IMG/VR virus record: IMGVR_UViG_3300020178_000002
Location: 62,001 to 126,000 of that record
Strand: one strand, 5' to 3'
Length of the DNA: 64,000 nucleotides
Source of the DNA: a virus
Below, piece by piece: positions 9,773 to 46,928 of this stretch. Under the pieces are notes generated by a model, which did no database searches, had not been told where the DNA came from, and saw only the letters and a program-made list of their open reading frames with translations. How positions within the stretch are numbered: position 1 is the first letter of the stretch; every line of letters starts with the position of its first letter. Made by a program: the position numbers and the translations under genes.

Positions 9773-9797
9773 ATTGTACCACTTTAAATCTTAAATC

Positions 9798-18555: not shown

Positions 18556-19041
18556 ATGAGAAGAATCACAGCATCCGAGAAAATCGCCCAGCTTGAAAAG
18601 AGAGTCGCTCAACTTGAAAAAGAAAGCTTTGACTTAAAGCAGATTCCAGATTGGCTCTTTGGAAGAGTGGATTCTAAAATGGAAGACCTTCATACACAAC
18701 TTAACTACAACTTCAAAAATCTTTTTGGAAACAAGGTTAAAATCACCTATCCTGTTAAACAACAGATCAAAAACCCTTTTAATGTTTCACAAGCTAAGTA
18801 TGTAGGTAAGCTCATTGTTGGTCGTGAACACATTAACTACACTGTTCTTGTTCTTAACAACTCTAAAATCCAACTCGAGGGACTCAACCCTTTCTCACCA
18901 GAGCAGTTCTATAAGTCTTCTAACTTTGTTTTCTACATCTCTAACAAGAAGGTTGTTTCTTCAAGAGACATTACCTCTGTTGCTTCTTTAGAAGCTATTG
19001 TAGATGCTATTGAAGCTAAGTACTCTCATATCTTAGCCTAA
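18556..19041 (+). CDS. Tagged small protein (shared N-terminal helix), copy 1
   Basis: A protein of 161 residues. Residues 1-25 read MRRITASEKIAQLEKRVAQL then EKES, an amphipathic heptad helix shared with four other proteins in this window. The rest, with beta pattern KYVGKLIVGREHINYTVLVLNN and a C-terminal helix, looks similar in layout to the 155-residue product at 46461-46928 but unlike the membrane paralogs carrying the same tag. AAAAGGA precedes the ATG. Its stop overlaps that of the convergent ParB-like gene by four bases. The tag may be a targeting peptide (inference). Confidence 0.65.
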   Translation: MRRITASEKIAQLEKRVAQLEKESFDLKQIPDWLFGRVDSKMEDLHTQLNYNFKNLFGNKVKITYPVKQQIKNPFNVSQAKYVGKLIVGREHINYTVLVLNNSKIQLEGLNPFSPEQFYKSSNFVFYISNKKVVSSRDITSVASLEAIVDAIEAKYSHILA

Positions 19042-19487
19042 ACCCCATCTAAAGGGTGTCTTAAAGAATGATGTGAAGGCTTACTTGATTTGAAGTAGGC
19101 TTCCATTATTCTTACTAGGTCAGAATTTGTCCATGCAATACCATCATTAGATTCTTCTGGTTTTGGTTCTACTACTTCAGGCTCAAAAGGCATTTCTGAA
19201 AGAACTATTGCATGGACATTCTTCCTACCTTGTGCAATAGCTTTTATAGCTCTATGGCAACCATCTATAATATTTCCATTGTGTACTAAGATAGGGAATG
19301 AGAGATCAGCTTCCAATACTCTTCCTATATGATCACACAGGTGTGTCTGACCCCAGAACCATTTTTGTAAAAAAGAGTCTGGTATAGACCATTCAACGAA
19401 TGTTTGGTCTTTCGTCATCTCCCAAAGTTTTTTTACTTCCCATTGGTAAGTCACACCATTTTCAGTGTGGGAATAAGTATGTCCCAT
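19038..19487 (-). CDS. ParB/sulfiredoxin-like domain protein
   Basis: A protein of 149 residues. The central block FPILVHNGNIIDGCHRAIKA followed by GRKNVHAIVL carries the IDGxHR signature of the ParB/Srx fold, in which the Arg region binds a phosphate or nucleotide; Cys and His sit next to it here. The family includes DNA-binding, nuclease and CTPase members, and phage versions are mostly uncharacterised. The C-terminal tail is acidic, then His/Ser rich. GGAG upstream overlaps the end of the preceding 592-residue gene. The fold is a fair call, the activity unknown. Confidence 0.6.
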   Translation of the reverse strand: MGHTYSHTENGVTYQWEVKKLWEMTKDQTFVEWSIPDSFLQKWFWGQTHLCDHIGRVLEADLSFPILVHNGNIIDGCHRAIKAIAQGRKNVHAIVLSEMPFEPEVVEPKPEESNDGIAWTNSDLVRIMEAYFKSSKPSHHSLRHPLDGV

Positions 19488-19491
19488 GTGT

Positions 19492-21270
19492 TTACTCCAT
19501 GCTAGAGAGCATCTCTAAGTTTGCTTTTAATCTTCTTCTGTAACTAGGGTCTCTTTTAACCCTACTAGCAATTCTTTGCAGAGCTGCTTTTTTGTTTCCT
19601 TTGAACTTCTTTTTAATAAAGTCAGCAACGATACCAACAGTCTTAATGCCTTGACTAAAGAGGTATTTAACTAGCCAACCTAGTAGTATAAAAGGTTCTG
19701 ATGCGATTGCAAAGAGAATACCTACCAAAGCAGTAATAAAAGAAGCAGAGCTTAAAAGGATAGATAAAGTAGTAGATCCTAATACAACACCCATTTTTCT
19801 TAGGTGTGAAGCTGTAAACTTAGCATTTGTTAGCAATGCAAAGATGGCTACAAAAACAATGAACCCACCAGCAGAAGTTGCAGCACCCATTAGCACTGTT
19901 TTTGCAGAAAGAGCTTTACCTGTAAAGAGGAAACTCTTAAGGTAAGGCCAGATAAGCTTAAAAGCAGCTATTTTCAGCCCAACAAAAATTGATTTAACTG
20001 CTAATATCTTAGTGTCTGGCAACAAAGATAGATACTTCATTATCTCAGAATACTTGCGAATAGAGTACATCAAAACAATTTGTGCTTTAGAAGAAGGCTC
20101 TTTGAAGTTTGGTATTTCGTGTAGGCTAAATTTACCTTTTTGTACAGACTTGTACTCATCATACTTTCTTCTAAGCTCAAACAACTCTCCTTTTAGCAAA
20201 GCCTCATCTGCTCTATTGTCAGCCAGCTCAATCTTCTCTTCTAGTTCTCTAATTTGCATAGCTACAGATTCAAACTTTGAATTATTCTCAGCTACAACTT
20301 CTCTGTACTTTTGAGAAATTGTACTTTTAATGTCTTTCATATCTTCAAAGCTAGTAGTAAGAAACCATCCTTCTTTTAGATTTATATACTCATCTAACAA
20401 AGAAAGGTACTCTTTGTAGTTTGGATCAAAGCCAAAAAATTTCTCTAGACGTTCAAATGGTATATTTGCAGCCATAGCTACTTCGCCTAGAGTTTTTGCT
20501 TTAACTAAAGTAACGACATTATCCGCCCAGATTGCAGGATTCCTTTGAGGGTCAAATTCATCTAAAACCATCTGTGCGAAAGGGTTGTGCTCTGCCATTT
20601 TCTTTACTGTCTTTGGAGTATACTCAACAAACATAGGCCAAAGAGAGCCTAAGTGTATTTTTTTATTCAAGACAGCTCCAATCAAGTACTTAACCTTAGC
20701 AACCATTCCCTTATCTATCTTCTTGCTTGCTTTTTCAGAGATGTCATTAATGACAGTAGCAGTAGCATCTAAAACTACTTTCTCTTTATCAGAAGCAAGT
20801 CTTCTATTGTCAGACATAAGGTGTGCAAGAATTAAGTTATTCATACTAGCTTTTTTACTGTGTTTCATTTTCCAAGACTTCCATTTGCTATGTGCAGGAC
20901 TAGATTTGAGTGAGGGGTCATGCCCCCAATTTCTGAGACTGATTTCCCATTTGGACATTCCAGAGCCCTTAATAGGTTGTCCTGGTTTGCCACCTAACAT
21001 ACGAGAGTTAAAACCATTCTCCTGAGCAGCATTATCAAAGTCTTGAGCTGTCCATTTGTCGAATGGCTTCGACTTTCTTCTCTTTATTCTGTGAAAAGAG
21101 TCATAGCCAGATTGTATATCACCAGCTTCTTCTGCTTCTTCTCTATTAATTGAAGCAAGAAGCCTATCATCATTCTTTGCCCATGAGTCTAAAGACTTCT
21201 GACTCATGTTTATAAGTGACTTCCACTTATTGTAGATTTCTTTTTTTTCTTCTGGTGATCTTTTGGCCAT
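19492..21270 (-). CDS. Large multi-span membrane protein
   Basis: A protein of 592 residues. Residues 1-135 are soluble and basic, with the block NGFNSRMLGG and SGMSKWEISLRNWGHDP, which looks like a conserved short domain. A long charged coiled coil follows, then three to five hydrophobic spans at about 405-540 (for example GGFIVFVAIFALL and LVGILFAIASEPFILLGWLV). The C-terminus is highly basic, with AALQRIASRVKRDP. AAGGAGG precedes the ATG, downstream of a late-promoter-like palindrome. It shares the charged/membrane/charged design of other genes here and may be a virion protein inserted into the host membrane (inference). Confidence 0.6.
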   Translation of the reverse strand: MAKRSPEEKKEIYNKWKSLINMSQKSLDSWAKNDDRLLASINREEAEEAGDIQSGYDSFHRIKRRKSKPFDKWTAQDFDNAAQENGFNSRMLGGKPGQPIKGSGMSKWEISLRNWGHDPSLKSSPAHSKWKSWKMKHSKKASMNNLILAHLMSDNRRLASDKEKVVLDATATVINDISEKASKKIDKGMVAKVKYLIGAVLNKKIHLGSLWPMFVEYTPKTVKKMAEHNPFAQMVLDEFDPQRNPAIWADNVVTLVKAKTLGEVAMAANIPFERLEKFFGFDPNYKEYLSLLDEYINLKEGWFLTTSFEDMKDIKSTISQKYREVVAENNSKFESVAMQIRELEEKIELADNRADEALLKGELFELRRKYDEYKSVQKGKFSLHEIPNFKEPSSKAQIVLMYSIRKYSEIMKYLSLLPDTKILAVKSIFVGLKIAAFKLIWPYLKSFLFTGKALSAKTVLMGAATSAGGFIVFVAIFALLTNAKFTASHLRKMGVVLGSTTLSILLSSASFITALVGILFAIASEPFILLGWLVKYLFSQGIKTVGIVADFIKKKFKGNKKAALQRIASRVKRDPSYRRRLKANLEMLSSME

Positions 21271-21284
21271 AAGACACCTCCTTA

Positions 21285-21318
21285 CACTACCTTATTTATA
21301 CTTATAAATAGATTAGTG
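21285..21318 (-). promoter_or_regulatory. Palindromic T4-late-like promoter
   Basis: Minus strand reads CACTA, then TATTTATA AG TATAAATA, then TAGTG: two nested inverted repeats. TATAAATA at 21300-21293 matches the T4 late -10 consensus exactly and lies about 23 bases before the ATG at 21270, with AAGGAGG between. A TATAAGTATA core (21306-21297), also found at three other sites, overlaps it. Confidence 0.5.
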
Positions 21319-21726
21319 ATAAGTGATGTGGTTGTACCCATGAATTAAGTCTGGAAAAAGATCCATGATGTCTAAAGATTGGATATTAACTGCTTCAGCT
21401 ACATCTTCAAGATTACAAGAAATAGCACTAGGGTAGTTGCTACTTTTGTCGTATAGCACACCAATGACTTTTCTGTTCCCTATAATATCTTGAATTAAAA
21501 ACCAGATGTAAACAAAATCTGAGTTGAGCATTTTTTTGTTTACAAATTTAACCCACTCCTCATTACTTCCCAGAAGAAGCTCTATGTTTTCATAATCTTC
21601 TTCTGTATAATAAGCGTGTGGTGGCATAGTAGTTAAATCTACACCTTTCTCTATAGCAATCCTTGCGTGGTTCTGCATAAAAGAGATACATGAGTTAAGT
21701 AATTTATTATGGAGGATGTTTGACAT
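21313..21726 (-). CDS. Unknown protein, start overlaps divergent gene
   Basis: A protein of 137 residues from ATG 21726, or 156 from a TTG at 21783 that lacks a good ribosome site. Sequence is globular, with EEDYENIELLLGSNEEWVKF and a C-terminal DIMDLFPDLIHGYN. The ATG overlaps the ATG of the divergent plus-strand gene in a CATG palindrome, so each gene's ribosome site lies inside the other's frame. No family recognised. Confidence 0.55.
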   Translation of the reverse strand: MSNILHNKLLNSCISFMQNHARIAIEKGVDLTTMPPHAYYTEEDYENIELLLGSNEEWVKFVNKKMLNSDFVYIWFLIQDIIGNRKVIGVLYDKSSNYPSAISCNLEDVAEAVNIQSLDIMDLFPDLIHGYNHITYH

Positions 21727-21970
21727 GAAGCCCAAACCTTTCAAATCTAAAGAATATATTGTTGAGTTTAAAAAATATGGCAACCTGATATCTCAGTTGC
21801 GTAATGTTCTTTCTTCTTATAGAAATAGCAGTAGCTTATGGGAAAACAATGACCTATTAAACCAAACTAAGAGATGTCAGAAAGAATTAGATTCTCTGAT
21901 GGGTATGATAAGCAGTATTGAAAAGAAAGAATCAGCCAGACTAAGGAAAGAGAAAAATGCCAACTTATAA
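21725..21970 (+). CDS. Small coiled-coil protein
   Basis: A protein of 81 residues, ATG at 21725 preceded by GGAGG at nine bases. It is helical and charged (KRCQKELDSLMGMISSIEKKES). It overlaps the FmdB-like gene downstream by 14 bases and heads a short plus-strand run. Function unknown. Confidence 0.5.
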   Translation: MKPKPFKSKEYIVEFKKYGNLISQLRNVLSSYRNSSSLWENNDLLNQTKRCQKELDSLMGMISSIEKKESARLRKEKNANL

Positions 21971-22142
21971 CTACAGGTGCAAAAAAGAAGAGTGCAAACA
22001 CGAGTTTGAAAAAATGCACAAGATGAATGACCCTAAGCCTGACTGTCCTAAGTGTAAAGAACCAGACCCAGAGAAGCTAATTTCTAAGAGTGGTACTTTT
22101 ATACTAAAGGGCAAAGGCTGGTTTAATACAGGTGGCTACTAG
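21957..22142 (+). CDS. FmdB-like zinc-ribbon protein
   Basis: A protein of 61 residues starting MPTYNYRC, followed by C-E-F spacing and CPKC, then ISKSGTFILKGKGW and a C-terminal GGY. This is the pattern of the FmdB/CxxC_CxxC_SSSS regulatory family (short zinc ribbon, then FxLKGxGW). Family members are common in bacteria and phages, with proposed but unproven regulatory roles. Overlaps both neighbours. Confidence 0.8.
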   Translation: MPTYNYRCKKEECKHEFEKMHKMNDPKPDCPKCKEPDPEKLISKSGTFILKGKGWFNTGGY

Positions 22143-22465
22143 TGAGACCTTACCTATTCCCTATCTTCTTACTTTGCGTGTCAAATGTGATATTCTGGTT
22201 TAAGGGGAACTCAAAAGAGCTTTTCGGTCTTGATTGGAGTCCTTTTAAGTGGTGGCTTTTTACAAGCCTATTTACTAATTATATGACCTTAACTGCATGG
22301 TGGAAGCTAATCCAGCTAGGGGATGTTTGGAAAGCTGGAGTTGTTTGGGGCTTGGTGAGTTTGACAACAGACCTCTTACTGAACACTGCATATTTTGGAT
22401 TTAATTGGAAAGGCATACTTGCATTGTGTTTATGTGCAATAGCAGCCTTAATTGCTCATAGTTAG
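22142..22465 (+). CDS. Small multi-span membrane protein
   Basis: A protein of 107 residues starting with GTG that shares a base with the previous stop (TAGTG). Four hydrophobic segments are visible (about 3-17, 34-52, 63-82, 88-104), rich in Trp and Leu. Size and topology recall one half of a small transporter of the DMT type, but no diagnostic motif is present. Role unknown; translational coupling to the FmdB-like gene is likely. Confidence 0.55.
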   Translation: MRPYLFPIFLLCVSNVIFWFKGNSKELFGLDWSPFKWWLFTSLFTNYMTLTAWWKLIQLGDVWKAGVVWGLVSLTTDLLLNTAYFGFNWKGILALCLCAIAALIAHS

Positions 22466-22475
22466 TTTATTTATA

Positions 22476-22504
22476 CTTTGCTGTAGGCAACAAGTGCAGC
22501 AAAG
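22476..22504 (+). promoter_or_regulatory. Hairpin covering topoisomerase ribosome site
   Basis: CTTTGCTG (22476-22483) pairs perfectly with CAGCAAAG (22497-22504) around a 13-base loop. The right arm contains most of the AAAGG ribosome site (22501-22505) of the topoisomerase ATG at 22514, so folded RNA would limit translation. No TATAAG element lies in the loop. Confidence 0.5.
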
Positions 22505-22513
22505 GTGTTGAAG

Positions 22514-23851
22514 ATGACTACTAAGAAGAAAAAGATTAAAGAAAAGAAACAGCTTGCCTTTCAAAAAAAGTCAGCAGCCGCTTTTAGAGCTTTAGGGAGA
22601 GCTGTTTATAGACATAGGCACAAAGCTAGGAAAAAGTACCCTAGCAGGTCAAATGAGTCGTTTAAGAAAAGAGGTAGATGGCTTATCCGCTTTCTGGATA
22701 AAGAACCTAAGACCATAGAATTTCTTGATACCTTTATTGGAACAGAAGATATGAATCCTCGAACAAAAGGTTGGAGAAGAAAAGTCTTAGAGCTTCTCTC
22801 TCTTTACCTTTTAAACAAGATCACATTGAGAGAAGCCTCTAAACTATTTGTGCCTATAGCTGCTAAGTCTTATGAAGTTGTTGCTTTAAACAAACAGCAA
22901 AATAAGATTCAAAAAACATTGCCACCAGAGATCATGGCCTTTTTGCCTAGCTCTATTGTTGTAGAAGTAGACAAAAACAACAACATCAAGGGCATCAATG
23001 ATATGTTTGTAAATGATACATATACATTGAAGGAAAAAATAAAGACCCAGAAGAAGCTAGTTTACCGATACAACACTATTGTTAAGCAAGTAAAGAAAGA
23101 TATGAAATCCAGAGATGAGATTACTAAGCTCTGTGCTTTAGTTACTTCCATCATAATGGAAACAGGCATTAGACCTGGAAAGATTGGTAATAGTGCTGTC
23201 AAGATTATAGAAGACAAGAAGATAGAAGTAGAGACTTTTGGAGCTGTTTCTCTCAATGCAGACCATGTGTCTTTTGTTAAAGACAACTTTGCAGAATTAA
23301 AGTTTGTAGGTAAGAAGGGTGGCTTGAACACAGCATCTCTCAAAGACTCAGATGTGATCAAAGTTTTAAAAGACTATGTAGATAACTCATTGAAGTCTGG
23401 TTCTAAGTACATATTTACAACTAGAGATGGTGAACAGTTTGATTACAAAGACCTTTCAAGCTACTTTAGGAAGAACTTTAAGGGCTTTAAAATCACAGAC
23501 TTTAGAAAGCTAAGAGCTACTAGAACTGTTTTTGAGGTTCTTAAAGATGAAAGAAGAAATATGCTAGGCAGGATCAAAGAGATTGCGTCTGGTGAGGTTG
23601 AGTCTATCAAAGCTAAAGCTACCGAAGAGATTGTTAAAACAATAGAATTGGCTCACCAGCAGGCACAGGCTGCCTTGAGTCACATGGATTCAAGCACAAC
23701 TCAAGATGCTTATATTAACCCTCAGGTTCTCTTACGCTTCTTAAGCACTGCAAAGATAGAGTCTTCTTTTAGAGACTATATCATGCAAGGCAAAACAAAG
23801 TTCAGATTTGATCCTATGATGTTTGTTAAAGAAGCTGAGAAGCTGGCATAA
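22514..23851 (+). CDS. DNA topoisomerase IB-like protein
   Basis: A protein of 445 residues. After a basic N-terminus and helical region come the motifs of the TopIB/tyrosine recombinase fold. IMETGIRPGKIG supplies Arg near 220, FVGKKGG the active Lys near 267, TDFRKLRAT the second Arg near 331-334, LSHMDSS a His near 390, and DAYINP the candidate nucleophile Tyr near 400. Spacing His to Tyr (10) and the YINP ending match TopIB (SYIHP) better than integrases. Such enzymes relax supercoils through a 3'-phosphotyrosine. ATG at 22514 has AAAGG eight bases upstream. The 3' end overlaps a convergent gene by 26 bases. Confidence 0.78.
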   Translation: MTTKKKKIKEKKQLAFQKKSAAAFRALGRAVYRHRHKARKKYPSRSNESFKKRGRWLIRFLDKEPKTIEFLDTFIGTEDMNPRTKGWRRKVLELLSLYLLNKITLREASKLFVPIAAKSYEVVALNKQQNKIQKTLPPEIMAFLPSSIVVEVDKNNNIKGINDMFVNDTYTLKEKIKTQKKLVYRYNTIVKQVKKDMKSRDEITKLCALVTSIIMETGIRPGKIGNSAVKIIEDKKIEVETFGAVSLNADHVSFVKDNFAELKFVGKKGGLNTASLKDSDVIKVLKDYVDNSLKSGSKYIFTTRDGEQFDYKDLSSYFRKNFKGFKITDFRKLRATRTVFEVLKDERRNMLGRIKEIASGEVESIKAKATEEIVKTIELAHQQAQAALSHMDSSTTQDAYINPQVLLRFLSTAKIESSFRDYIMQGKTKFRFDPMMFVKEAEKLA

Positions 23852-24332
23852 GCTTTATAGGTTCTACATCAGAAGCCCAATGGTTTCTAATTGAGTTAAT
23901 GATATAGTGACCATGCTCTACTTTATTGACCTTAATATCTCCATGAGTTGAATTGGTATAGATCATATACCTTGCTCTGGGTACGTCATCAAATAGGATG
24001 TCTGTTAAAACTGTGTCAACTTCAAGACTATCTATAAAAAAAGAAAAGTATGTTGTGATCTCAGCTTTAGGTAAAGAAGGATGGCTCATAACCACAGAGT
24101 GATACCTATATTCTTTGTTAGCAGAAATATCTTTTTGATCCTCTGTTGTCTTGACAAATTCGTAACCCATTTCAAGCATTAGACTTTGATAAAAACTCGT
24201 TGTGTTTGCTAAAAACAAGTACATCTGAACTTCATAATCATCACCAACAGCATTTGAGAAGCTAATAATAGGGTCTGGGATATTTATGTTCATAATCCTT
24301 TGACCATTTGAAACTTGTGTATAATTATCCAT
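23826..24332 (-). CDS. Unknown protein
   Basis: A protein of 168 residues, ATG preceded by GAGGT. It overlaps the upstream 202-residue gene by eight bases, so the pair is coupled. Mixed alpha/beta sequence with DDYEVQMYLFLAN and EHGHYIINSIRNHW; no membrane span or catalytic motif found. The end is embedded in the topoisomerase gene on the other strand. Function unknown. Confidence 0.55.
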   Translation of the reverse strand: MDNYTQVSNGQRIMNINIPDPIISFSNAVGDDYEVQMYLFLANTTSFYQSLMLEMGYEFVKTTEDQKDISANKEYRYHSVVMSHPSLPKAEITTYFSFFIDSLEVDTVLTDILFDDVPRARYMIYTNSTHGDIKVNKVEHGHYIINSIRNHWASDVEPIKLMPASQLL

Positions 24333-24933
24333 TTGTTAACCTCACAAAAGCTCTAGGAATCCAATATGATTCAGACTGTCTGAGCATAGTCTGAAAATCT
24401 TCTTCGGACATGTCTGTAGGAGTTCCACCATCCCAGCCATAATAGTTGGCTTTCAAAGCATAGGGTGTAATAGGTGGCATAGATTCATCATTGTCTGGAT
24501 ATGCATTTATGCTTATTAGTTCCCAATTATCTGCACGAGGCTCTAGCTCATTGTCACCTGTTATAGAAAGGGCTAATGAGTTGTAGAAAATCAACCCTAC
24601 TTTTTGAGCTTGGGGTTTCTGACTACGAAGAACTTCCCTGTAAGGTCTCGGTTCTTCACCTTCTACTCTAGACCTAATTCCCTCAAAGACTTCTTCATCT
24701 TCTTGTATTAAACAAACTGCTGAATAAAAGTGTTGGCTTAGGTTTTCTGGGAGAGTAGCAACGAGGACTCTACCACCTTCATTGTGGTTTAATGGTAGAT
24801 ATCCTTCTCTTGTTTCAGCAACTAGTAAGAGATTAGCCACTTCCTCTAAGGGGAGTGTAGAGTGAGATAGGGGTGCTTCTGCGGTGTGTCTTTTAGCAAA
24901 GCTATTTACAGCAATCTTGTTTATAGTAGTCAA
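24325..24933 (-). CDS. DUF3228-like protein
   Basis: A protein of 202 residues starting with TTG, preceded by AAAGGA at good spacing. The segments LISINAYPDNDESMPPIT, the following aromatic helix, then GGTPTDMSEEDFQ and ESYW recall the conserved end of DUF3228 proteins (MPPxTxxRN, GGTxxxYSxEExxxxxxxW). No activity is known for that family. A TATAAGTATA palindrome lies about 65 bases upstream. Confidence 0.5.
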   Translation of the reverse strand: MTTINKIAVNSFAKRHTAEAPLSHSTLPLEEVANLLLVAETREGYLPLNHNEGGRVLVATLPENLSQHFYSAVCLIQEDEEVFEGIRSRVEGEEPRPYREVLRSQKPQAQKVGLIFYNSLALSITGDNELEPRADNWELISINAYPDNDESMPPITPYALKANYYGWDGGTPTDMSEEDFQTMLRQSESYWIPRAFVRLTNG

Positions 24934-24995
24934 TTAAATTTCCTTTTGTGTAATATAATACCTAATCTAATGTGTTTTTTTTCTTAGATCGAACA

Positions 24996-25007
24996 CTATA
25001 CTTATAG
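24996..25007 (-). promoter_or_regulatory. TATAAGTATA promoter-like palindrome
   Basis: CTATAAGTATAG, directly after the stop of the Ntn-hydrolase gene and about 65 bases before the TTG start at 24933. The same core occurs at 16358-16367 and 21297-21306, and as TATAAGTA at 58648-58655. Confidence 0.4.
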
Positions 25008-25008
25008 A

Positions 25009-26430: not shown

Positions 26431-26532
26431 AGTGGGAATCCTTTGTTTTTATATCTCTATAGGATAAAGGTATATAACAATTACAATACGAGGCGAGAAA
26501 TGAGACACTCAAACCAAAGACAGGAGCATGAT

Positions 26533-27975: not shown

Positions 27976-28019
27976 TTTATTGTCCTTTGTCTTAGGCATC
28001 ATTAAAAAAGAGGTATATA

Positions 28020-28868
28020 ATGAATAAAATATCAACACAAGAAATTAGAAAGCTTGAAATTAGGATAGCAAGGTTAGAGAAGGAGTCCAAGATTCTTGAT
28101 TGGTTGAAGTCTATCCCTATAAACCTACTCTCTAAGATTCAAGACTCCTTTGGAGAAATTTCTTCTCTTTTAAAGCTTACCTTAAAAAAGAATAAGGAAA
28201 GTATCTTAGAGGGCTTAGTTAAGTTCTTAGAAGTTAGAGTCAGCAGTGCATTAGATAAATCTCTTATGTCTGGATACCCTATTAGGTTTTATATCACTAA
28301 TTTTGACCCAAACAATCCTATGAACTCTGAAGCCCAGCTTATGGTTAAAGAAGTAGGTGGTGAGTTAAAATCTTATGAAGCTACTATCCGAGATATGCCA
28401 TCAATGCTTAAAGATGTTGAGGGTCTACCCCCTAGCATAGATAAAGATATTAAAGGTGCATATATTTCATGGTGGAAAGACTTTGAAGAAGAACTAAAAA
28501 TGCTTCGTGAAGGAAGGATGAGTAGGTCTACGGATTTGAAATCTTTCTGGAACAGAATCAAAGGTGCAAGTAAGTTTCTTTACAGGTTCTTGAGAGTTGT
28601 CTACAGCTTTAAATGGGCTTATGAAGTGTTCTCTTTAGTTGTGATGTTTACAACCCTAATGCCTTTGGCAGAAGTTGCACCAGAAAGAGGGAAGACCCTC
28701 ACTTATCTAGGTGTTGGTAAGATGATCTTAAACATATTTGAAAAGGTTCTTCGCAGAAGAAAAGTAAATATGGATCTCTTTGATGAGCTTGCAGCTAAAA
28801 AAGCATCTTCTCACCCTTACCCATATTGTAATAGCTTAGTCTCTCATTACGAAAGGGTTTGCAAGTGA
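28020..28868 (+). CDS. Tagged membrane protein, paralog 1
   Basis: A protein of 282 residues. Residues 3-23, ending RKLEIRIARLEKES, are a divergent version of the shared N-terminal helix. It is paralogous to the 292-residue protein at 29547-30425: common landmarks are DIKGAYISWWKD near 143-154, a membrane segment near 200-218 and RRRKVNMDLFDEL near 250-262. GAGG precedes the ATG. The stop overlaps the GTG of the next tagged gene (GTGA). Function unknown; joint presence of a tag and a membrane segment suggests delivery into or through a membrane. Confidence 0.65.
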   Translation: MNKISTQEIRKLEIRIARLEKESKILDWLKSIPINLLSKIQDSFGEISSLLKLTLKKNKESILEGLVKFLEVRVSSALDKSLMSGYPIRFYITNFDPNNPMNSEAQLMVKEVGGELKSYEATIRDMPSMLKDVEGLPPSIDKDIKGAYISWWKDFEEELKMLREGRMSRSTDLKSFWNRIKGASKFLYRFLRVVYSFKWAYEVFSLVVMFTTLMPLAEVAPERGKTLTYLGVGKMILNIFEKVLRRRKVNMDLFDELAAKKASSHPYPYCNSLVSHYERVCK

Positions 28869-28936
28869 GGCAACTAACAGCATCACAGAAAATCGCTATC
28901 CTTGAGAACAGAGTAGCTCAACTTGAAAAACAAGCA
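28865..28936 (+). repeat. Tag module DNA, copy A
   Basis: 72 bases encoding the N-terminal tag; six differences from 29547-29618, all silent except the GTG/ATG start. Similarity stops abruptly just downstream. Confidence 0.85.
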
Positions 28937-29494
28937 ATGCTTGAAAGCATCTTAGCTAAGATAAAAAGCAAGTTGTCCCGATTCAAGCCCCTTAAGGTAG
29001 CTCAACATGTGGCCAAAGACTCTAAAATGACAGTGGGGAAGTTTGAAGCCTTAGCAAAAGCGAATCCAAAGGAACTTAAAGAGTTAAAGAAAGCTGTGAG
29101 GTCTTCTAATCCTCAAACCTCTATTTTAAAGCTATTAGACATTTACAATAATAAAGAAAATGCAATCTATTTGAAAAGTGTATATGGGATAGATCTTGAG
29201 TCTCAAGAAAGAACAAAGAATGCAAGGAAGCTAGTTCAGCTCAACAGTCTGCCTGACTTTGCTCTCTATTTTGGTAGTATCATAGCCTTTTTTATTTGTG
29301 ATTTCGTTGTTGAGCTTTTATTTGACTATCTCCTTGAACTGATAGCTGAAGATCTCGAGAAATCAGACAATGTATTCAGGAAACTTAAACGTGCTTGCCT
29401 CTACTTGATCTTAGCACCTACTATGGGATTACACATACTACTTTCTGGGATCAAAGAAGGGCTGAAAGCAATGAACCCTTTTGCGTTTTTTTAA
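28865..29494 (+). CDS. Tagged membrane protein, copy with near-identical tag
   Basis: A protein of 209 residues, GTG start at 28865 overlapping the previous stop by four bases and preceded by AAAGGG. Its first 24 residues are identical to those of the gene at 29547-30425, at about 92% DNA identity, but the remainder is unrelated to it: a basic helical region, then hydrophobic helices near 138-160 (FALYFGSIIAFFICDFVVELL) and 178-195 (LYLILAPTMGLHILL). The abrupt loss of similarity after the tag implies module shuffling. Function unknown. Confidence 0.65.
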   Translation: MRQLTASQKIAILENRVAQLEKQAMLESILAKIKSKLSRFKPLKVAQHVAKDSKMTVGKFEALAKANPKELKELKKAVRSSNPQTSILKLLDIYNNKENAIYLKSVYGIDLESQERTKNARKLVQLNSLPDFALYFGSIIAFFICDFVVELLFDYLLELIAEDLEKSDNVFRKLKRACLYLILAPTMGLHILLSGIKEGLKAMNPFAFF

Positions 29495-29546
29495 TAACTG
29501 TTTTATAGTCCACACCACTTTAGACAAATCGAAGAAAGAATAAACC

Positions 29547-29618
29547 ATGAGACAACTAACAGCATCACAAAAAATCGCTATTCTTGAGAACAGAGTGGCT
29601 CAACTTGAAAAGCAAGCA
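29547..29618 (+). repeat. Tag module DNA, copy B
   Basis: Second copy of the 72-base tag module, about 92% identical to 28865-28936. Confidence 0.85.
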
Positions 29619-30425
29619 ATCATTCAAATGATTAAGAATCTGGGAATGAACTGGTTTAAACCTCTAATTGCAGCAGCTCAAGACCTTGTGTCCACTTTCA
29701 AGGGGTCAATTATAAGTAATAGAGATACTTTTGCTTCTGCTGCTGAAATGAACTTACAGGCGAGACTGACCGAAGCTCTCCAAAGAAATATGTTTTTTGG
29801 GAAAACCACATCAATAAGTGTTGAAAAATTTGATGCTAAAAACCCAGTAAACTCTGTTTTGAAAGTCTCCTATTCTGTAAATGGAGAACCCAGGTTTCTT
29901 GATTTCACTCTGAGTTCTGTACAGAAAATTAGAGAGATTGACAGTAAAACCCAAAAAGACATTATGGGAGCATATGTTTCATGGTGGAAAGATTGGGGTG
30001 ATTCTCTGGATATTGTAATCAATGGCAAATCTCCATCAAAAAGTATGGTTCAGAGCGTAATTGATTTTTTCTCTAGGAAGTTTAAGTTCCTTGGGAGATT
30101 GCTTTCTGCACTAGTTAAATTTGGAACAAAAATAAGAACCCTAACCCTGATCCCTACTTTAGTAGCATCTTTAATAGTTTGCCTTTGTGGACCTCTCGGC
30201 CTAGTTGTTGGTAGTACTGTAGCTATGAACCAAATTGGGTTAATGACACTACCAAAAGTTGTAGACATGATTCTTAAGATGATTGAGGGTGCTTTCAGAA
30301 GAAGAAAAGTAAACATTGATAAGTTCAATGAAATAATTGGCAAACAAGCATCTGTGAATAAGTATGCAAGTAAATACCCACACACATATTCTATGTTATT
30401 AAGACTTGAGGGTGCTGGAGTCTAA
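29547..30425 (+). CDS. Tagged membrane protein, paralog 2
   Basis: A protein of 292 residues. The N-terminal tag (TASQKIAILENRVAQLEKQA) is identical to that of the preceding gene, whereas the body is paralogous to 28020-28868: MGAYVSWWKDWGD, a hydrophobic hairpin at about 207-235 (LIPTLVASLIVCLCGPLGLVVG) and FRRRKVNIDKFNEI. The C-terminal region has KQASVNKYASKYP. So tag and body have separate histories. The ribosome site is weak (GAAAGAA). Confidence 0.65.
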   Translation: MRQLTASQKIAILENRVAQLEKQAIIQMIKNLGMNWFKPLIAAAQDLVSTFKGSIISNRDTFASAAEMNLQARLTEALQRNMFFGKTTSISVEKFDAKNPVNSVLKVSYSVNGEPRFLDFTLSSVQKIREIDSKTQKDIMGAYVSWWKDWGDSLDIVINGKSPSKSMVQSVIDFFSRKFKFLGRLLSALVKFGTKIRTLTLIPTLVASLIVCLCGPLGLVVGSTVAMNQIGLMTLPKVVDMILKMIEGAFRRRKVNIDKFNEIIGKQASVNKYASKYPHTYSMLLRLEGAGV

Positions 30426-30426
30426 T

Positions 30427-31053: not shown

Positions 31054-31118
31054 CACTCTTTGCTTGCCTCTTATCTTATAATAGAAAGTAACTATTAAGA
31101 TTTGAGACAAGGAGAGAT

Positions 31119-33719: not shown

Positions 33720-33729
33720 GGAGGGACAA

Positions 33730-34503: not shown

Positions 34504-34553
34504 TAAAGAAAGAAGTTATCTAAAAAAGAATAAAATTTAAGGAGGAAAGTATT

Positions 34554-34811: not shown

Positions 34812-34813
34812 AC

Positions 34814-36182: not shown

Positions 36183-36231
36183 AGATGCAACCCCCTTATT
36201 TTAATTAACAGACAAGATTTAAGGATTATTA

Positions 36232-39377: not shown

Positions 39378-39412
39378 TTATTGTCCTTAAAAAGTGTGTG
39401 CTTTAATCCCTA

Positions 39413-39424
39413 ATCTTATAAGAT
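39413..39424. promoter_or_regulatory. Divergent promoter-like palindrome
   Basis: ATCTTATAAGAT is a perfect palindrome midway between divergent genes starting at 39377 (minus) and 39454 (plus). It offers TATAAG on both strands at 30-40 bases from each start, so one site may serve both directions or bind a regulator. Confidence 0.35.
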
Positions 39425-39453
39425 AGGAAACTTAACAAGGAGATAAATTAAAC

Positions 39454-40155: not shown

Positions 40156-41675
40156 TGAGTAATATTTTAAGAAGTATTGTTCCATCACCAAGTTCTGGTG
40201 ATAATGAAAAACTAATGTACCAAAACTTTATTACTTTGAGGGAGTCTGTCTTAAGATTCGATATGCCCTCTGATGTAAATATTTATGAGTACATCAAAGA
40301 CTTTAGTCAAAAGCATGGTCACTTACCTAATGCTAAAAGTATTCGAGATTACTTTGAGCAAAACCAGAGCTTTGATGAAGCGGATAGGATACAGCAGATA
40401 AGTACACAAAGTGTTGCTTATCGAGGTGACTTTATCTCTCTAATAGAAAAGTCTGTTGAAGAGGGTAGGCTTACTAATCTAGCTTCTATGCTTGCTGATG
40501 CTAAGATGATAGCTAAGTCAGGTCTTGAAATTAAAGAGGGTAAGACTAAGAGAACTCTAAAAGGTGCAAGGGATGCTAGTAATCACCTCTTGAACCAGAT
40601 CTCAAAAATCAACACACCTACTTTTGGTAGTCGTATTGGTGGAGAAGCACTTAGTGATGGTGATGACTTCTGGGATGCTTATGAGAAAGCTAAGAACAGT
40701 GAGTTAGACATCAGACCAATGACAGGATTATCTGTCATTGACAATGCTATTGGTGGTTTCAAAAAGAAAGAGCTTTATATCTTAGCAGCTTTTACAGGTC
40801 ACTTGAAATCAACTAGCTCTTTAAATTGGGTTTATAATCAAGCAATCTATGGTGGCACTAACACCATTTACTTCTCATTAGAGATGCACTACCCACAGTG
40901 TCGAAGGATTATCTACACCTACCACTCAATGCACCCTAAGTTTAGAAAGAAGCGTATTGCTTTAGGACTTCAAACAGGTCAGACAGATGTCTGTATAGAC
41001 CCTAAGAAGATTAAAGAGGGTACACTGACCAAAGACGAAGAGGCATTTATGAAAGAGGTTGTTAAAGATCTCAATGATGGTGTTAAGTCTGGTCAATATG
41101 GCTCACTTCGATTTGAAGTAGCTGACCCTAATTTGATGGACTTTACAGTTGAAGATTTAAGAGCAAGAGCAGAAGCGATTGCACAATCTGAGTCAGTAAA
41201 GATGATTGTAGTAGACCACGCTCTCTTGGTATCTCCTAGAAGATGGGTAGCTAGTACAACAGACAGGCTTAATGAGGTTATTCGTGACCTTAAAAAGACT
41301 GCTCTGGGCTTCAATAGAGGTGAGGGTATTCCTATTCTTTGCTTGTTCCAAATTAGTCGTGAGGGCTTCAAGTCAGCAGAAAAGAATGGTGGCTCTTATA
41401 ACCTAACTCACTTGAGTTATGCAAATGAAGCAGAGCGTTCTGCGGATGTGGTTATCTCAAGTTGGTTTGGTGAAGACATGAAGCAGAACTCACAGGTTAA
41501 GTATCAATGCCTAAAGTCTAGAGATCAAGCTCCTTTCGATAACTTTGAAGCTCAGATTTCATGGCCTGCTGGTCGAGTTCTTGATATGCCTTTACAGTTT
41601 CAATCTAGTACAGCCAAAAGCAAGCCTGCCCCTAAGGGAGATGCTTTAGATAAGATACTAGATGAGGAACTTTAA
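40155..41675 (+). CDS. DnaB-like replicative helicase
   Basis: A protein of 506 residues. The N-terminal part is helical; the C-terminal part is a RecA-type domain: MTGLSVIDNAIGGFKKKELYIL, then AFTGHLKSTSS (212-222) at the Walker A position, FSLEM, MIVVDHALLV as Walker B, CLFQISREG and RSADVVIS. The P-loop reads TGHLKST, lacking the Gly that normally precedes Lys. Everything else follows the DnaB family, which unwinds DNA ahead of the fork as a hexamer. It starts in overlap with the loader gene and ends in overlap with the next gene. Confidence 0.85.
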   Translation: MSNILRSIVPSPSSGDNEKLMYQNFITLRESVLRFDMPSDVNIYEYIKDFSQKHGHLPNAKSIRDYFEQNQSFDEADRIQQISTQSVAYRGDFISLIEKSVEEGRLTNLASMLADAKMIAKSGLEIKEGKTKRTLKGARDASNHLLNQISKINTPTFGSRIGGEALSDGDDFWDAYEKAKNSELDIRPMTGLSVIDNAIGGFKKKELYILAAFTGHLKSTSSLNWVYNQAIYGGTNTIYFSLEMHYPQCRRIIYTYHSMHPKFRKKRIALGLQTGQTDVCIDPKKIKEGTLTKDEEAFMKEVVKDLNDGVKSGQYGSLRFEVADPNLMDFTVEDLRARAEAIAQSESVKMIVVDHALLVSPRRWVASTTDRLNEVIRDLKKTALGFNRGEGIPILCLFQISREGFKSAEKNGGSYNLTHLSYANEAERSADVVISSWFGEDMKQNSQVKYQCLKSRDQAPFDNFEAQISWPAGRVLDMPLQFQSSTAKSKPAPKGDALDKILDEEL

Positions 41676-41986
41676 TGAGAAGAAAGAAAAATGATGACCT
41701 TTATTTCATTCAATCTGCAAAGACAGGGATGATTAAAATAGGAAGATCTAAGAACCCAGAAAAAAGACTGAAGCAACTCCAGACAGGCTCTCCAAATAAG
41801 CTTAAGCTTATAGCTTCTTTTAAAGAAGAGGGCTGGAGAGAGTCTGAACTCCATGAGCATTTAAGAGAGTGGAAAGTTAGAAGCAATGGAGAATGGTTTA
41901 CCTATGATTGTGTAGGTAATATACCCAAGCACTTCTATGAAAGAATAGAGTGGGGCTCTTTTGATGATTGGTGGGAGAGTCCTTAG
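41675..41986 (+). CDS. T5orf172/MUG113-like (GIY-YIG superfamily) protein
   Basis: A protein of 103 residues. LYFIQ, then MIKIGRSKNPEKRLKQLQTG, SPNKLKLIAS, ESELHEHL and GEWF follow the T5orf172/MUG113 domain, a compact GIY-YIG nuclease relative. The Arg-x-x-x-Leu helix and terminal Glu of the active site are present. Such genes in phages are thought to nick DNA or act as small mobile or regulatory nucleases; the target is unknown. The start overlaps the helicase stop (TAATG) and the stop overlaps a convergent gene by four bases. Confidence 0.82.
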   Translation: MRRKKNDDLYFIQSAKTGMIKIGRSKNPEKRLKQLQTGSPNKLKLIASFKEEGWRESELHEHLREWKVRSNGEWFTYDCVGNIPKHFYERIEWGSFDDWWESP

Positions 41987-42957
41987 TAAGTCTGGAACTT
42001 TTGTAAGAGGTGATCTCTTTTTTGTTCCGCAATCTTGCTTAGGGTTACTCCCATACACTTTTTGTTAAGATAATCCTCTATAGAAGAGATAAGCTTATTC
42101 TTAGCTAACTGCACTTCTTTAGAATATCTTTGCTCATTATATGGAGTCTCAAGCTCCCAATCTTTTAGGCTCTTTTCATAGAACTTCATATCTTGATTTC
42201 GTTTTTCCACCTTTTCTTTTGAAAGGTGGCTCTTAAATTGGTCTTCAATTTTTAAGAGAGTCTCTTCTGTGTCTCTTATAGCAACAAGAACAAACAAGAA
42301 GTTTTTCTTCTTAAAGATATCTCTTTGGACATAGAGAACTTTGTCATAGAATGCTCTTATTTCAAGACCAAACTTCTTTTTTATTACATCACTCAGATAT
42401 TTAATATTGGTGTACTTGCTGAAATTGCTTTCTAAGAACCCTATCCAAGTCTCTTCAAAGTCTCTCTTGTAAGAAGATATTTTCACATAGAGATTAGAAC
42501 TATTGTAAAGAGCAATCCTATAATCTTTAGGGTTTATTTTTAATGGGTTTAATGATTTGTTCAGATCTTCTATCTTCTCTAGTTCACTAATGTTGTATAG
42601 CTTCTCTATTATCTTTCTCACAGTTCGACTACCTAGAGATTTCTTTATAGCACCTGGTTTCTTTTCTTCAATCTTATTTAACATTTCTAATTCTTTAGAA
42701 ACGACCTTTGCTATTTTTATAGGCAGGTTTGAAACAAAGTCATCAGGATAAACAGAAGTTAGCCCCCCATAAGGACTTCTCTCATATTTGTAATACTGTC
42801 GGCCTATAACATCACCAGAGTTATTGTAAAGGTAGTCTCCTGCATAAATCCCCTTTTTTTTAGCTAGAGCGTCTACTTTCATTATATCAAGAGATGAGCC
42901 ATAGACCTCTAAAAAAGTACCTTCTCTTGTCTTAAAAGTTTTATATCTTATCTTCAT
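41983..42957 (-). CDS. Unknown protein
   Basis: A protein of 324 residues with GAAGGAG before the ATG. It is Lys-rich and mostly helical, with beta pieces at the start (KTREGTFLEVYGSS) and centre (KKKNFLFVLVAI) and a long charged C-terminal helix region. No membrane segment or catalytic motif is apparent. Function unknown. Confidence 0.6.
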   Translation of the reverse strand: MKIRYKTFKTREGTFLEVYGSSLDIMKVDALAKKKGIYAGDYLYNNSGDVIGRQYYKYERSPYGGLTSVYPDDFVSNLPIKIAKVVSKELEMLNKIEEKKPGAIKKSLGSRTVRKIIEKLYNISELEKIEDLNKSLNPLKINPKDYRIALYNSSNLYVKISSYKRDFEETWIGFLESNFSKYTNIKYLSDVIKKKFGLEIRAFYDKVLYVQRDIFKKKNFLFVLVAIRDTEETLLKIEDQFKSHLSKEKVEKRNQDMKFYEKSLKDWELETPYNEQRYSKEVQLAKNKLISSIEDYLNKKCMGVTLSKIAEQKRDHLLQKFQTY

Positions 42958-42997
42958 AACAGAACTCCTTCTTCAATCGAGTGTCATATAAAGAGTA

Positions 42998-45037
42998 TTA
43001 AGCGATTACAATGTAATTGACTTTAATACTTATTGAGCCATTACTGTAGTTTGCAATCCCTAAAACACTAGAATGGCCAGCAGCATCACTATACCTCAGT
43101 TGCAGGTAGCGTTTTGTCGCATACACAAAGGAAGCCCCAACATAAAGATAAGGACTCCCATCTATCTCCATAAAAGAGCTGGTGGAAGTCACAAAAGATA
43201 AGACTTTAACATTATCATATAGCAGATTCCCACTTGAGTCTATGGGGCTGTAAAGACCTGTGTAATCTTCTGTAGTCTCTGGATAGAAAAGGGTGTTTTC
43301 ATTATTATTTAGATGACCCATACGAATGTCTGTAGATCCTCCAGAATTATAAGTCACATCTTGAAAGAATAAAGGAATCACATCAACATGGTAGTTCAGA
43401 TTGATGTCAAAAGAAACAGACCCAGAACCTAAGATACTTATACCTAAAGCTCTCAATACATTATTAGCACCTAGAGCCATTAATTTGTTTGGTGCATCCG
43501 AGACAATAGCACTTGAAGATACTGTGACATTAGTACCAGCATCAATCTCCACACCAAGACCTGAAAGTGATACAGTATCTGTGGCTGTAGTAGTTATATT
43601 CTCTGCCGTAGTTTCAATCGAACCACTAACAGCAGAGAATTCAATCAAACCACTAGCAGCAGTAGTGGTCACACTTGGTGCTGTAATATTTATTTCATCA
43701 TCTCCAGTAACATCTACTGTGCGACCATCAATAGCAACAGAACCTCTCTTTTCTAAAATACTGTTGCCACTAACAGCACCACCTCGAATGGTCACAGAAC
43801 CTCCAAAGATACCACCATTGCCATTATTTAAACCTAAGAAGCTACCACCCTCAATCAATACATCTCCTGCATATGCAAAGTCACTATCCAAAAGAGAGAA
43901 ATCAAAGTCTTCAACAGCACCACCTCGAATAAAAACCTTTCCTTTAGTTGCTGCATCTTTAGAGGTAGGTTCATCAGCAGTACCAGCTCCGATAACAACA
44001 TCTCCAGGTGTGCCACTTAGATTTGAATCGCCACTGTAGATATGAATGTCACCACCACTTGAATCTGTAAATCCTGAAGCACCCTCTATGGTTAAACCAC
44101 CTGCTGTGCCACCAGAATAGTTATCGCCTACTTTTATATCTATATCTCCACCAATACCTTGATCTGTTTTACCTGTACCTATATTTATAGAGCCAGCAGT
44201 TCCACTATTTGAATTGCTAGTTTTGATAGAAAGGTCACCACTACTAGAAGAACCGTATAGTGAGCCTGTGAAACTACCTGTACTGATAGAAATACCACCT
44301 GTAAATTCACTAGGGTCTGTTCGATCTGAAGTGTGTAAATTAACACCAGACGCTCTACCTTTTATATCTACATAGTAGGCATCCATTGTAAGATTCCCAT
44401 AACCATAGGCTATTAAGTTAATGTAGCCACCCCAAGTTTCTGAATCTTGCAAACCATTGTTTGCTTTACCACCTAAAATATTAACATCTCCAGCTCTATT
44501 AAAGTAAGATCCATCGAGAGCCATATTGCCCCCTCTTACATCAATACGGCCTGGATCATCTCCTGTATTGTCACTTTGACCATAGATTAAGACATTTGCA
44601 TTCAAGCTTGTGTATGTAGGCTTAGGTACAGGGGAGATTAAAATATCATCTCCAGACCTAAGCTCTAGTCTTTCTTCACTTTGGACATATATGTGACCTC
44701 TTTCAGAGAGGGTAAGAGGAGTAGCATACTCTCCACTTTTAATAAGTATTCGACCAGAGCTAACTCCTGTACCAGAAATCAACTCTATTTTCCCACCGAC
44801 ACCGCCTGTTTTTGACTCTCCTGCATGCAATAGGATTTCACCCCCAGCACCATCAAAAGAGTCTCCAGATTCTAGGGTAATAATGCCACCATCTCCAAAA
44901 CCAGAGGCAGAGTTTATAAGTATACCTCTTTCAGAGCTTCCGAAAAGAGAAGCACTATCTATTGAGGGTTTAATAATTCGACCTCTTTGTTGAGACTGGT
45001 TGATTGAAACTTCTAAGGAATCTTTAGTTGAACTCAT
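42998..45037 (-). CDS. Beta-solenoid tail fibre-like protein
   Basis: A protein of 679 residues. Residues 40-440 consist of about 20-residue turns such as GGIITLESGDSFDGAGGEI and GDIHIYSGDSNLSG, with repeated GG-[ED]-I-x-[IL]-x-[SA]-G; this predicts a beta-helix. A low-complexity Thr/Ser/Val part follows (EINITAPSVTTTAASGLIEF), then a C-terminal 150-residue domain with aromatic residues that may trimerise or bind receptor. There is no signal peptide, so a virion fibre or spike is likelier than a host-exported adhesin. It is a lone minus-strand gene away from the tail operons. GAGAGG precedes the ATG. Confidence 0.65.
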   Translation of the reverse strand: MSSTKDSLEVSINQSQQRGRIIKPSIDSASLFGSSERGILINSASGFGDGGIITLESGDSFDGAGGEILLHAGESKTGGVGGKIELISGTGVSSGRILIKSGEYATPLTLSERGHIYVQSEERLELRSGDDILISPVPKPTYTSLNANVLIYGQSDNTGDDPGRIDVRGGNMALDGSYFNRAGDVNILGGKANNGLQDSETWGGYINLIAYGYGNLTMDAYYVDIKGRASGVNLHTSDRTDPSEFTGGISISTGSFTGSLYGSSSSGDLSIKTSNSNSGTAGSINIGTGKTDQGIGGDIDIKVGDNYSGGTAGGLTIEGASGFTDSSGGDIHIYSGDSNLSGTPGDVVIGAGTADEPTSKDAATKGKVFIRGGAVEDFDFSLLDSDFAYAGDVLIEGGSFLGLNNGNGGIFGGSVTIRGGAVSGNSILEKRGSVAIDGRTVDVTGDDEINITAPSVTTTAASGLIEFSAVSGSIETTAENITTTATDTVSLSGLGVEIDAGTNVTVSSSAIVSDAPNKLMALGANNVLRALGISILGSGSVSFDINLNYHVDVIPLFFQDVTYNSGGSTDIRMGHLNNNENTLFYPETTEDYTGLYSPIDSSGNLLYDNVKVLSFVTSTSSFMEIDGSPYLYVGASFVYATKRYLQLRYSDAAGHSSVLGIANYSNGSISIKVNYIVIA

Positions 45038-45129
45038 GTTAACCTCTCTTTTTTAGTATAGGCTTAATAAAAGACATAGTGATAGTTAATCTATTGCTTG
45101 TCACTTTTGCTAAATAAAGGAGTTCATCT

Positions 45130-46464
45130 ATGAGTAAATACAACGCTATAAGAGAAGAGAATGAAAAGTTTAATGCATGGATTCTTGAAGAAGAAGAGGC
45201 AGGTGGCTTCTTTGATCCTATAGAAGAAAGAAAAGTTAGGTTTTTTAATGAACTGAGTGAAGAAGGCAAGGAGAAAGCATACGAAGAATTTGAAGCTACC
45301 AAAGAAATCAAAGACATTAAAAGATATAGGGCTCTGGCATTTCAGGGCAAGCTTTTTGCTTTGCGGTGGTTGTTAAAAAGATCTAAGGATTTTGAAGAAT
45401 TTAAAGAGCCTTTAGAAAACAAAACCAAGAAATTAGATCTCAGTCCTAGTAAAGATCGAAGAACAAAAATCAAAGATATGACCCAGACCAAAGCAAGAGA
45501 CTTATACTTGGAAGATGTTATATTTGATGACTTAGACCTATCTTGGTCAGACTTCTCGGGTAGCACTCTAGTCAACTGTAGTTTTAATAACACAACACTG
45601 ACAGGTGCAAAGTTTGTAAACTGTTCTTTACAGATAGTAGACTTTGGTGGTGCAGACCTCACCTTAGTGGACTTCAAAAATGTGGATCTTCGAGCCACCA
45701 AGGACTTTGGTAAGGCAACAATTAAGCAAACCAACTTATCTGGTGCTGATGTTAGAGGTGTTGATCTAAGAGGTGCTGGAGAAAGTAAGGAAGATCTTTT
45801 CTATGTTAGTCCAACAACTAAATTTGATGTTACTAACAAAAAGCTGATTACTAAAGTGCCTATTTACATGGAGAAGTTTGATGTTCTGTTAAAAAACATA
45901 GAAGACCAAATCAATAAAGGAAAAGAAATTGGATATGATAAGTCTAAAGTCAAAGAACTAAAAAAATATCTTAATGAAAATACATTTAAGGTCTTCTATG
46001 GAGATAGGATATTAAAAGTACTAGACTACTACAAAAAAGAGCTTTCTTGGAGAAAACGCTTGCCAGATTCCTTTTTGCCTTTTTCTTATTCTTTTAAAGA
46101 CTTAAAGAAGTTCTTTAGGAACACTGACAGCCAAGTTAAGAATATGGTTAGCAAGATTAATCAAAAGATTGGCTCAAAGAGATATGTACTGACAGAGCCT
46201 GTTAATACTAACAGCCATACTAACAGATTAAAGGGCAAGATAGTCTATGGGGGAAATCTTTTAGGTTTATCTCAAACAGTGCCCTATTACATAATTGTAA
46301 ACATTGGAAATTCTGGCTTTGGCCTTAGAAGATTTTATACACCAGAGTCTTATATCTTCTGCATACCTCAAAAGAGTTGCTCATCCGAATTTGAAGAATT
46401 TGGTCAAAGAGAGCTAGGTACTATTGTTATGAAGATAGAAGACTTAATCTGGAGAGAACGTTAG
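45130..46464 (+). CDS. Pentapeptide-repeat protein
   Basis: A protein of 444 residues. An acidic helical N-terminus (1-95) is followed by pentapeptide repeats at about 125-215 (DLSWSDFSGSTLVNCSF, GAKFVNCSL, GADLTLVDF, TNLSGADVRGVDL), which build a right-handed square beta-helix. A 230-residue C-terminal region, basic and without a named domain, completes it. Some pentapeptide proteins mimic DNA and inhibit gyrase; whether this one does is unknown. AAAGGAG precedes the ATG; the stop overlaps the convergent tagged gene in TTAG. Confidence 0.8.
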   Translation: MSKYNAIREENEKFNAWILEEEEAGGFFDPIEERKVRFFNELSEEGKEKAYEEFEATKEIKDIKRYRALAFQGKLFALRWLLKRSKDFEEFKEPLENKTKKLDLSPSKDRRTKIKDMTQTKARDLYLEDVIFDDLDLSWSDFSGSTLVNCSFNNTTLTGAKFVNCSLQIVDFGGADLTLVDFKNVDLRATKDFGKATIKQTNLSGADVRGVDLRGAGESKEDLFYVSPTTKFDVTNKKLITKVPIYMEKFDVLLKNIEDQINKGKEIGYDKSKVKELKKYLNENTFKVFYGDRILKVLDYYKKELSWRKRLPDSFLPFSYSFKDLKKFFRNTDSQVKNMVSKINQKIGSKRYVLTEPVNTNSHTNRLKGKIVYGGNLLGLSQTVPYYIIVNIGNSGFGLRRFYTPESYIFCIPQKSCSSEFEEFGQRELGTIVMKIEDLIWRER

Positions 46465-46928
46465 TACTGATATAAAGCCATGATCTTTTGACGCTGGCGA
46501 GGTGTTCTAACGCTATTTTTGACGATAGTTTTAATGTTCTGGATGATGAATTTAGGGTTTTCAGAAGAGAAGTTAGGCACTACCACTAAATTAAATTGTT
46601 CTCTGGTGTATATACTTGTTAAGTAAACCCTTAGTAGGTCTTGCTCCTTATCAAGCTCTACATTAATAAACATAAGTTGTTGTCTATCATTTTTGATATG
46701 ACCTCGTGCCTCTAATTGGTATATTTTATTGGGCTTTTTGATGTAGCCATCATCACCTTTGGTGTTTGCAAGACCATAGTCTACCAGAGCATCTCCTGTT
46801 CCGTTAGCTATTGCCTTAAGGGTTTCTTTAATTTTATCTCCAAAAATGTCAAATAGTCCAGCTTCTTTTTCAAGCCTGGCGATTCTCATTTCAAGAGATC
46901 TGATTTGTTGTGCTGCTGTTCTTCTCAT
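46461..46928 (-). CDS. Tagged small protein, copy 5
   Basis: A protein of 155 residues from ATG 46928, with AGGAAAA upstream; an in-frame ATG ten codons earlier is less likely. Residues 1-25 read MRRTAAQQIRSLEMRIARLE then KEAG, the shared tag. The remainder has beta pattern QQLMFINVELDKEQDLLRVYLTS and a C-terminal helix with IIQNIKTIVKNSV, like the body of the 18556-19041 product. This minus-strand copy is 17 kb from the plus-strand cluster, so the tag is dispersed. Confidence 0.65.
   Translation of the reverse strand: MRRTAAQQIRSLEMRIARLEKEAGLFDIFGDKIKETLKAIANGTGDALVDYGLANTKGDDGYIKKPNKIYQLEARGHIKNDRQQLMFINVELDKEQDLLRVYLTSIYTREQFNLVVVPNFSSENPKFIIQNIKTIVKNSVRTPRQRQKIMALYQY

Follow-up and report, generated by a model that had tools for sequence, protein, structure and literature searches.

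The internal proteins IPI-III of phage T4 carry an N-terminal capsid-targeting sequence (CTS) that is found on several divergent proteins, suffices to target foreign proteins, and is followed by a prohead-protease site common to the scaffold (PMC9026906). The first 30 residues of phage P1 DarB direct a reporter to the capsid (PMC9024508), and both this signal and the T4 IPIII CTS carried reporters into heads (PMC9026906, PMC9024508). In the jumbo phages phiKZ and SPN3US, N-terminal propeptides of head and ejection proteins are cut by the prohead protease (PMC10052503, PMC9026906), and T4 gp21 and SPN3US gp245 degrade core proteins and cleave both propeptides and themselves (PMC9026906, PMC10052503).

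Here, we analyzed an N-terminal helix that is most likely a cleavable cargo tag in a family of uncultured giant bacterial viruses; literature searches of open papers returned no account of it. Like the CTS of IPI-III, the tag is N-terminal on divergent proteins and followed by a protease site, here putative, that is common to the scaffold. The T4 CTS has ~10 residues and is cut after L/I-x-E, whereas the tag is a coiled-coil-like helix of ~20 residues with a predicted cut after [KR]-x-[A/S]; it has no sequence similarity to the CTS and would serve up to ~30 cargoes per genome. The P1 DarB signal has been described for one large anti-restriction protein, whereas the tag occurs on many small, unrelated proteins together with a recurrent cleavage motif. 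phiKZ and SPN3US cut after S/A-x-E or A-x-E, and the reports on them describe no common portable helix. The best reading is that the tag functions like the T4 IPIII and P1 DarB signals, is unrelated to them in sequence and cleavage specificity, and has far more cargo.

The window analyzed is a stretch of 64,000 nucleotides that comprises bases 62001-126000 of a 312,136-bp IMG/VR record. As proposed in the initial annotation, five ORFs in the window begin with the same helix; a profile built from the five tags gave E = 1.5e-12 to 8e-16 for these five, and the window holds no clear copies besides them. Three of the gene positions given earlier stand, and two were corrected: the third gene starts with a TTG at 28859 rather than at 28865, and the fifth gene runs on the minus strand from its tag Met at 46928. 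Tag 1 (MRRITASEKIAQLEKRVAQLEKES; 18556..18627, plus strand) begins a 161-aa orphan with a small predicted beta/alpha body (gene 18556-19041), and 40 nt before it is a late-type promoter match (TAGTCTCTTTATA; 18503..18515, plus strand; score 16.0). Tag 2 (MNKISTQEIRKLEIRIARLEKES; 28020..28088, plus strand) is on a 282-aa protein of the A3 family with a membrane-type body (gene 28020-28868), for which the A3 alignment predicts a C-terminal cleavage site, KKAS (28797..28808, plus strand). The end of this gene overlaps the TTG start of the gene with tag 3 (MQVRQLTASQKIAILENRVAQLEKQA; 28859..28936, plus strand), which encodes 211 aa (28859-29494) with a membrane-type body of a family other than A3. 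Tag 4 (MRQLTASQKIAILENRVAQLEKQA; 29547..29618, plus strand), with a late-type promoter match 39 nt upstream (TAACTGTTTTATA; 29495..29507, plus strand; score 11.5), belongs to a 292-aa paralogue of the 28020 protein (gene 29547-30425) with two predicted C-terminal cleavage sites, KQAS and KYAS (30342..30371, plus strand; family consensus KTAS). Tag 5 (MRRTAAQQIRSLEMRIARLEKEA; 46860..46928, minus strand) begins a protein of 155 aa counted from the tag Met (gene 46461-46928) and has a promoter match 41 nt before it (TATGTCTTTTATG; 46970..46982, minus strand; score 10.7).

To judge by its genes, the record is from a phage-G-like huge phage. Its major capsid protein (MCP) is of the phage-G type (PHROG 2522), with 38% identity to phage G gp27 (PDB 6wkk), 47% to Tunturi_5, and 89% to the MCP of LR745208, a 485-kb metagenomic phage, and the record has contractile tail genes for sheath and baseplate wedge proteins. 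At 176 to 182 kb of the record, the gene order is prohead protease, scaffold, a gene of 207 residues placed like that for the decoration protein of phage G, and MCP. The protease ORF (record 176745-178133; L024:14745-16130), located in the gap upstream of the scaffold, adjoins scaffold and MCP and shares 39% identity across 248 residues with Tunturi_5 gp331, annotated as a head maturation protease; a search of the genome for Pfam Peptidase_S78 gave no match. The scaffold was assigned from gene position together with its acidic, low-complexity sequence; it includes a conserved coiled-coil segment, LKAANARL. Thus, with a homologous MCP and a prohead protease beside the scaffold, the record has a head assembly module like that of phage G. 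Phage G (Bacillus/Lysinibacillus) and Tunturi_5 are of the same capsid lineage, but neither genome has a tag anywhere.

The tag consensus, S/T-A-S-E-[IV]-I-x-x-L-E-x-R-[IV]-A-x-L-E, describes a conserved amphipathic helix of ~20 residues. A search of the whole record with the five-tag profile, as the initial annotation had suggested, returned >20 further N-terminal copies, for about 28 clear copies and two degenerate ones, scattered over both strands, with two tagged genes directly downstream of the MCP gene. Among 12 capsid relatives, the profile matched nine, with up to 32 places in one 375-kb record, and gave no match in LR745208 or two fragments; in a second set of relatives, it found the tag in five of nine. 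Profile searches detected no copy in the phage G, Tunturi_5, or LR745208 genomes, and tblastn with the tag as query had no match among named phages. Because LR745208, G007, and G008 have the same capsid without the tag, the tag is accessory. We also scanned 2.9 million viral contigs with a 27-base DNA pattern of the clade consensus MRRSASE[IV]I and obtained 104 viral stretches, in which the tag continues in 83 of 84 distinct reads. When run over bacterial and archaeal genomes totaling 257 Gb, the same pattern had a single match, out of frame and with stops. The tag is thus not a chance match; by this pattern, it is restricted to phages and is not a general coiled coil of unrelated hosts, and the initial annotation had named such a general coiled coil as speaking against an address label. 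Of 12 tagged contigs tested, four contain this MCP type (93-98% identity), and the other eight, most of which are fragments, have no MCP of this type. ORFs were called mechanically, and since contigs may include near-duplicates of a single population, identical proteins were collapsed and the argument below is carried by families rather than counts.

Over all loci, there are 201 distinct tagged proteins, and in 191 of these the last Leu-Glu of the tag is followed by [KR]-x-[A/S], immediately in 136 and 1-13 residues on in the rest; about 10 have no such site nearby. In G000, K-E/Q-A-G/I/F or KxS often takes the place of KxAS behind the tag. The putative P1 residue is Ala in 135 and Ser in 56 proteins, and P1' is mainly Ser (70), Gly (38), or Ala (21). 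The predicted Ala/Ser differs from the Glu at this position in T4 and phiKZ and recalls the (A/S) sites of herpesvirus assemblin. The L-x-E-like sites attributed to the helix earlier were not borne out: [LI]xE occurs inside only 31 of the 201 tags and within the 13 residues after only 14, and LxE is not in excess in the scaffolds. Similarly, [SAG]xE, with which we tested for cuts of the phiKZ/SPN3US type (after S/A-x-E), lies within 13 aa of only 29 of the 201 tags.

An adjacent motif may partly reflect the heptad, with A/S at the 'a' position, and we therefore tested the 65 non-adjacent tags separately. In these cases, the helix usually ends in G, S, or N, and 39 have [KR]xA[SAGNT] within 13 residues compared to 2.0 expected from the bodies of the same tagged proteins (p = 3e-42); examples of such junctions are LEGRTAS, LEANLNRTAS, LEQSSVSTKKAS, and LEGGRKVAS. 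This result bears on another possibility, in which the tag is never removed and serves as a stable assembly or oligomerization helix: a short coiled coil would bring the tagged proteins into one complex, whether among themselves, on a membrane platform, or with a part of the tail. The heptad I--L---I--L with R at g and E at e permits dimers, an adjacent K-x-A/S fits the 'a' position, and AlphaFold2 continues the helix from the tag into the body of the 29547 protein (residues 6-57). A plain oligomerization tag does not predict that the site persists past helix breakers at spacings of 1-9 residues, nor that the same motif marks scaffold and protease, and we consider this explanation unlikely. 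The AlphaFold2 models of the 29547 (pLDDT 59) and 46461 (pLDDT 48) proteins are too weak for classification of the bodies, Foldseek gave no match at E<=0.001, and fold prediction was of no help with respect to tag docking.

In a ranking of untagged proteins by their excess of [KR]xAS, every genome examined, the tagless LR745208 among them, had the scaffold, the protease, or both near the top. Full-length scaffold homologues have 8-19 [KR]xA[SAGN] sites compared to 2.0-3.6 after shuffling, and several alignment columns keep the motif as the letters vary (KFAS/RRAS/RRAS/KKAS/RKAS/RKAS in one column). All protease homologues have RVAS, RIAS, or RIAG at residue 25, directly in front of the catalytic domain, and most have a second site near residue 270, just after this domain. 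The portals of six genomes have no such sites, and the tubes have almost none. Hence, a putative site of the same type is found at tag junctions, in the scaffold, and in the protease, and because the latter two show it, a [KR]-x-[A/S] specificity can be inferred from non-tagged proteins. With a full scaffold, a flanked catalytic domain, and an empty portal, the distribution of [KR]xA(S) has the pattern of prohead-protease sites, as reported for T4 gp21 and SPN3US gp245.

A promoter element, TAGTTTATTTATA, is located 40-50 nt before most tagged genes. The enrichment is sharpest in G001, in which 22 of 28 tagged genes have a score of 12 or more compared to 36 of 493 other genes (Fisher p = 4e-18). 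Of the five tags in the window, tags 1, 4, and 5 are preceded by a match, and the score is weak for tags 2 and 3, whose genes form the overlapping pair. The element also stands in front of the operons for baseplate, sheath, tube, and decoration-MCP and is absent before polA, dnaB, uvsX, and the clamp loader; from gene content, rather than expression, we infer that it is a late promoter. The promoter shared with virion operons argues against the idea that the tag directs proteins to another site in the infected cell, for example the inner membrane or a phage replication compartment, with another protease clipping them. Transmembrane-like segments in 21 of the 201 bodies would fit such an address, but most bodies lack them, and the site matches the prohead core and not a known host protease site, making this explanation very improbable. 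In G001, G002, and G009, the tagged genes have leader DNA in common that is missing from other late genes. Moreover, codons for the same residue in the tags agree at 0.48-0.65 compared to 0.28-0.39 expected from codon usage, to which special codon usage near start codons could contribute. These data suggest that promoter, leader, and tag spread together as a cassette.

By blastp (E<1e-4), the 201 tagged proteins fall into 138 body families and, thus, have a short N-terminal segment in common on otherwise divergent proteins, as in the T4-type CTS. Most bodies have no Pfam match; the rare matches are to a Cupin_8/JmjC enzyme, a WGR domain, and pentapeptide repeats. No structural PHROG was matched by the bodies, and PADLOC returned only four isolated weak matches. 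One body exists both with the tag (G005_160291 and G001_191203) and without it (G006_245812), at 46-54% identity, and the untagged ORF begins at the body itself. In the window, the bodies are less separate than the proposal of at least three unrelated groups had it: the 28020 and 29547 proteins are paralogues, and the 28859 protein has only the tag in common with them. Some tagged proteins are paralogues, as in a nine-member membrane family, but the notion that all form one fast-evolving paralogous family with the N-terminus merely its most conserved part was rejected, as barely credible, on the 138 body families, including the JmjC/Cupin_8 enzyme, the WGR protein, and pentapeptide repeats, and on homologues with and without the tag.

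Together, the 138 body families, the late-type promoter, and the putative site common to scaffold and protease lend good support to the core of the initial proposal of an undescribed, T4-like label for virion cargo, with the proposed L-x-E cut replaced by [KR]-x-[A/S] downstream of the helix. We hold with good confidence that the tag is a cleavable capsid-targeting prosequence that loads cargo into the head. As a capsid-targeting prosequence, it would act on proteins expressed together with the virion genes, its amphipathic helix docking them on the core of the prohead, with the scaffold as the probable partner. After prohead assembly, the phage prohead protease would cut directly downstream of the helix, after [KR]-x-[A/S], using the type of site through which it would also degrade the scaffold and process itself; the freed body would stay inside the head and enter the next host along with the ejected DNA. 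As a DNA cassette of late promoter, leader, and tag, the tag could move between genes, and new, mostly orphan proteins would become cargo. We lean slightly toward a further-reaching version, in which this mobile cassette makes arbitrary, often newly born genes head cargo, so that each virion of the clade would inject roughly 10-30 different proteins, set free by a prohead protease whose [KR]-x-[A/S] specificity has not been described before. The tag would be a sequence rule predicting from raw metagenomic DNA which ones among hundreds of orphan genes in these huge phages are head-carried and injected, and the cargo of uncultured phages would become listable and testable. Tag and protease are also a possible protein-loading module for engineered capsids, which could be tested.

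We made several additional observations. In the A3 membrane family (G000 151847-156669 and 9039-9935; window 28020-30425), a KTAS near the C-terminus is conserved, with a tail of 18 residues (YPxxxxxTRxLE) behind it; this KTAS is likely a second cut site. A large orthologous protein (G000 257191-259542, G001_8726, G002_129711, G005_142108, G006_306638, and W01_414655), of 783-1035 residues and 614 in LR745208, ranks high by [KR]xAS; with 6-10 sites, it is the most site-rich protein or nearly so in most genomes and is a candidate for another core protein or an ejection protein. A further modular N-terminal region of ~145 aa (KSLINMSQKSLDSW...NWGHDP.LKSSP) is kept in four genomes (window 19492-21270, minus strand; G001_156044; G005_204568; G006_246153) on bodies of different lengths, with a [KR]xAS site soon after it in three of the four, and is possibly another cargo-targeting domain. 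There are two topoisomerase IB-like proteins, at window 22505-23851 (plus strand) and G000 184900-186267 (Pfam Topoisom_I, 3.6e-17); the former and the G001 homologue are behind strong late-type promoter matches, so topoisomerase is possibly co-expressed with virion genes. A family of small proteins (108-168 aa) with a YTEVVNGKRDW-like N-terminal motif, not linked to the tag, is encoded at G000 141551-144828 (in tandem, 141-145 kb) and 160961 and at window 23826-24332 (minus strand). Finally, window 18101-18448 (minus strand) is a short lipoprotein-like ORF with tandem SD(A/S)TVEEAG repeats.
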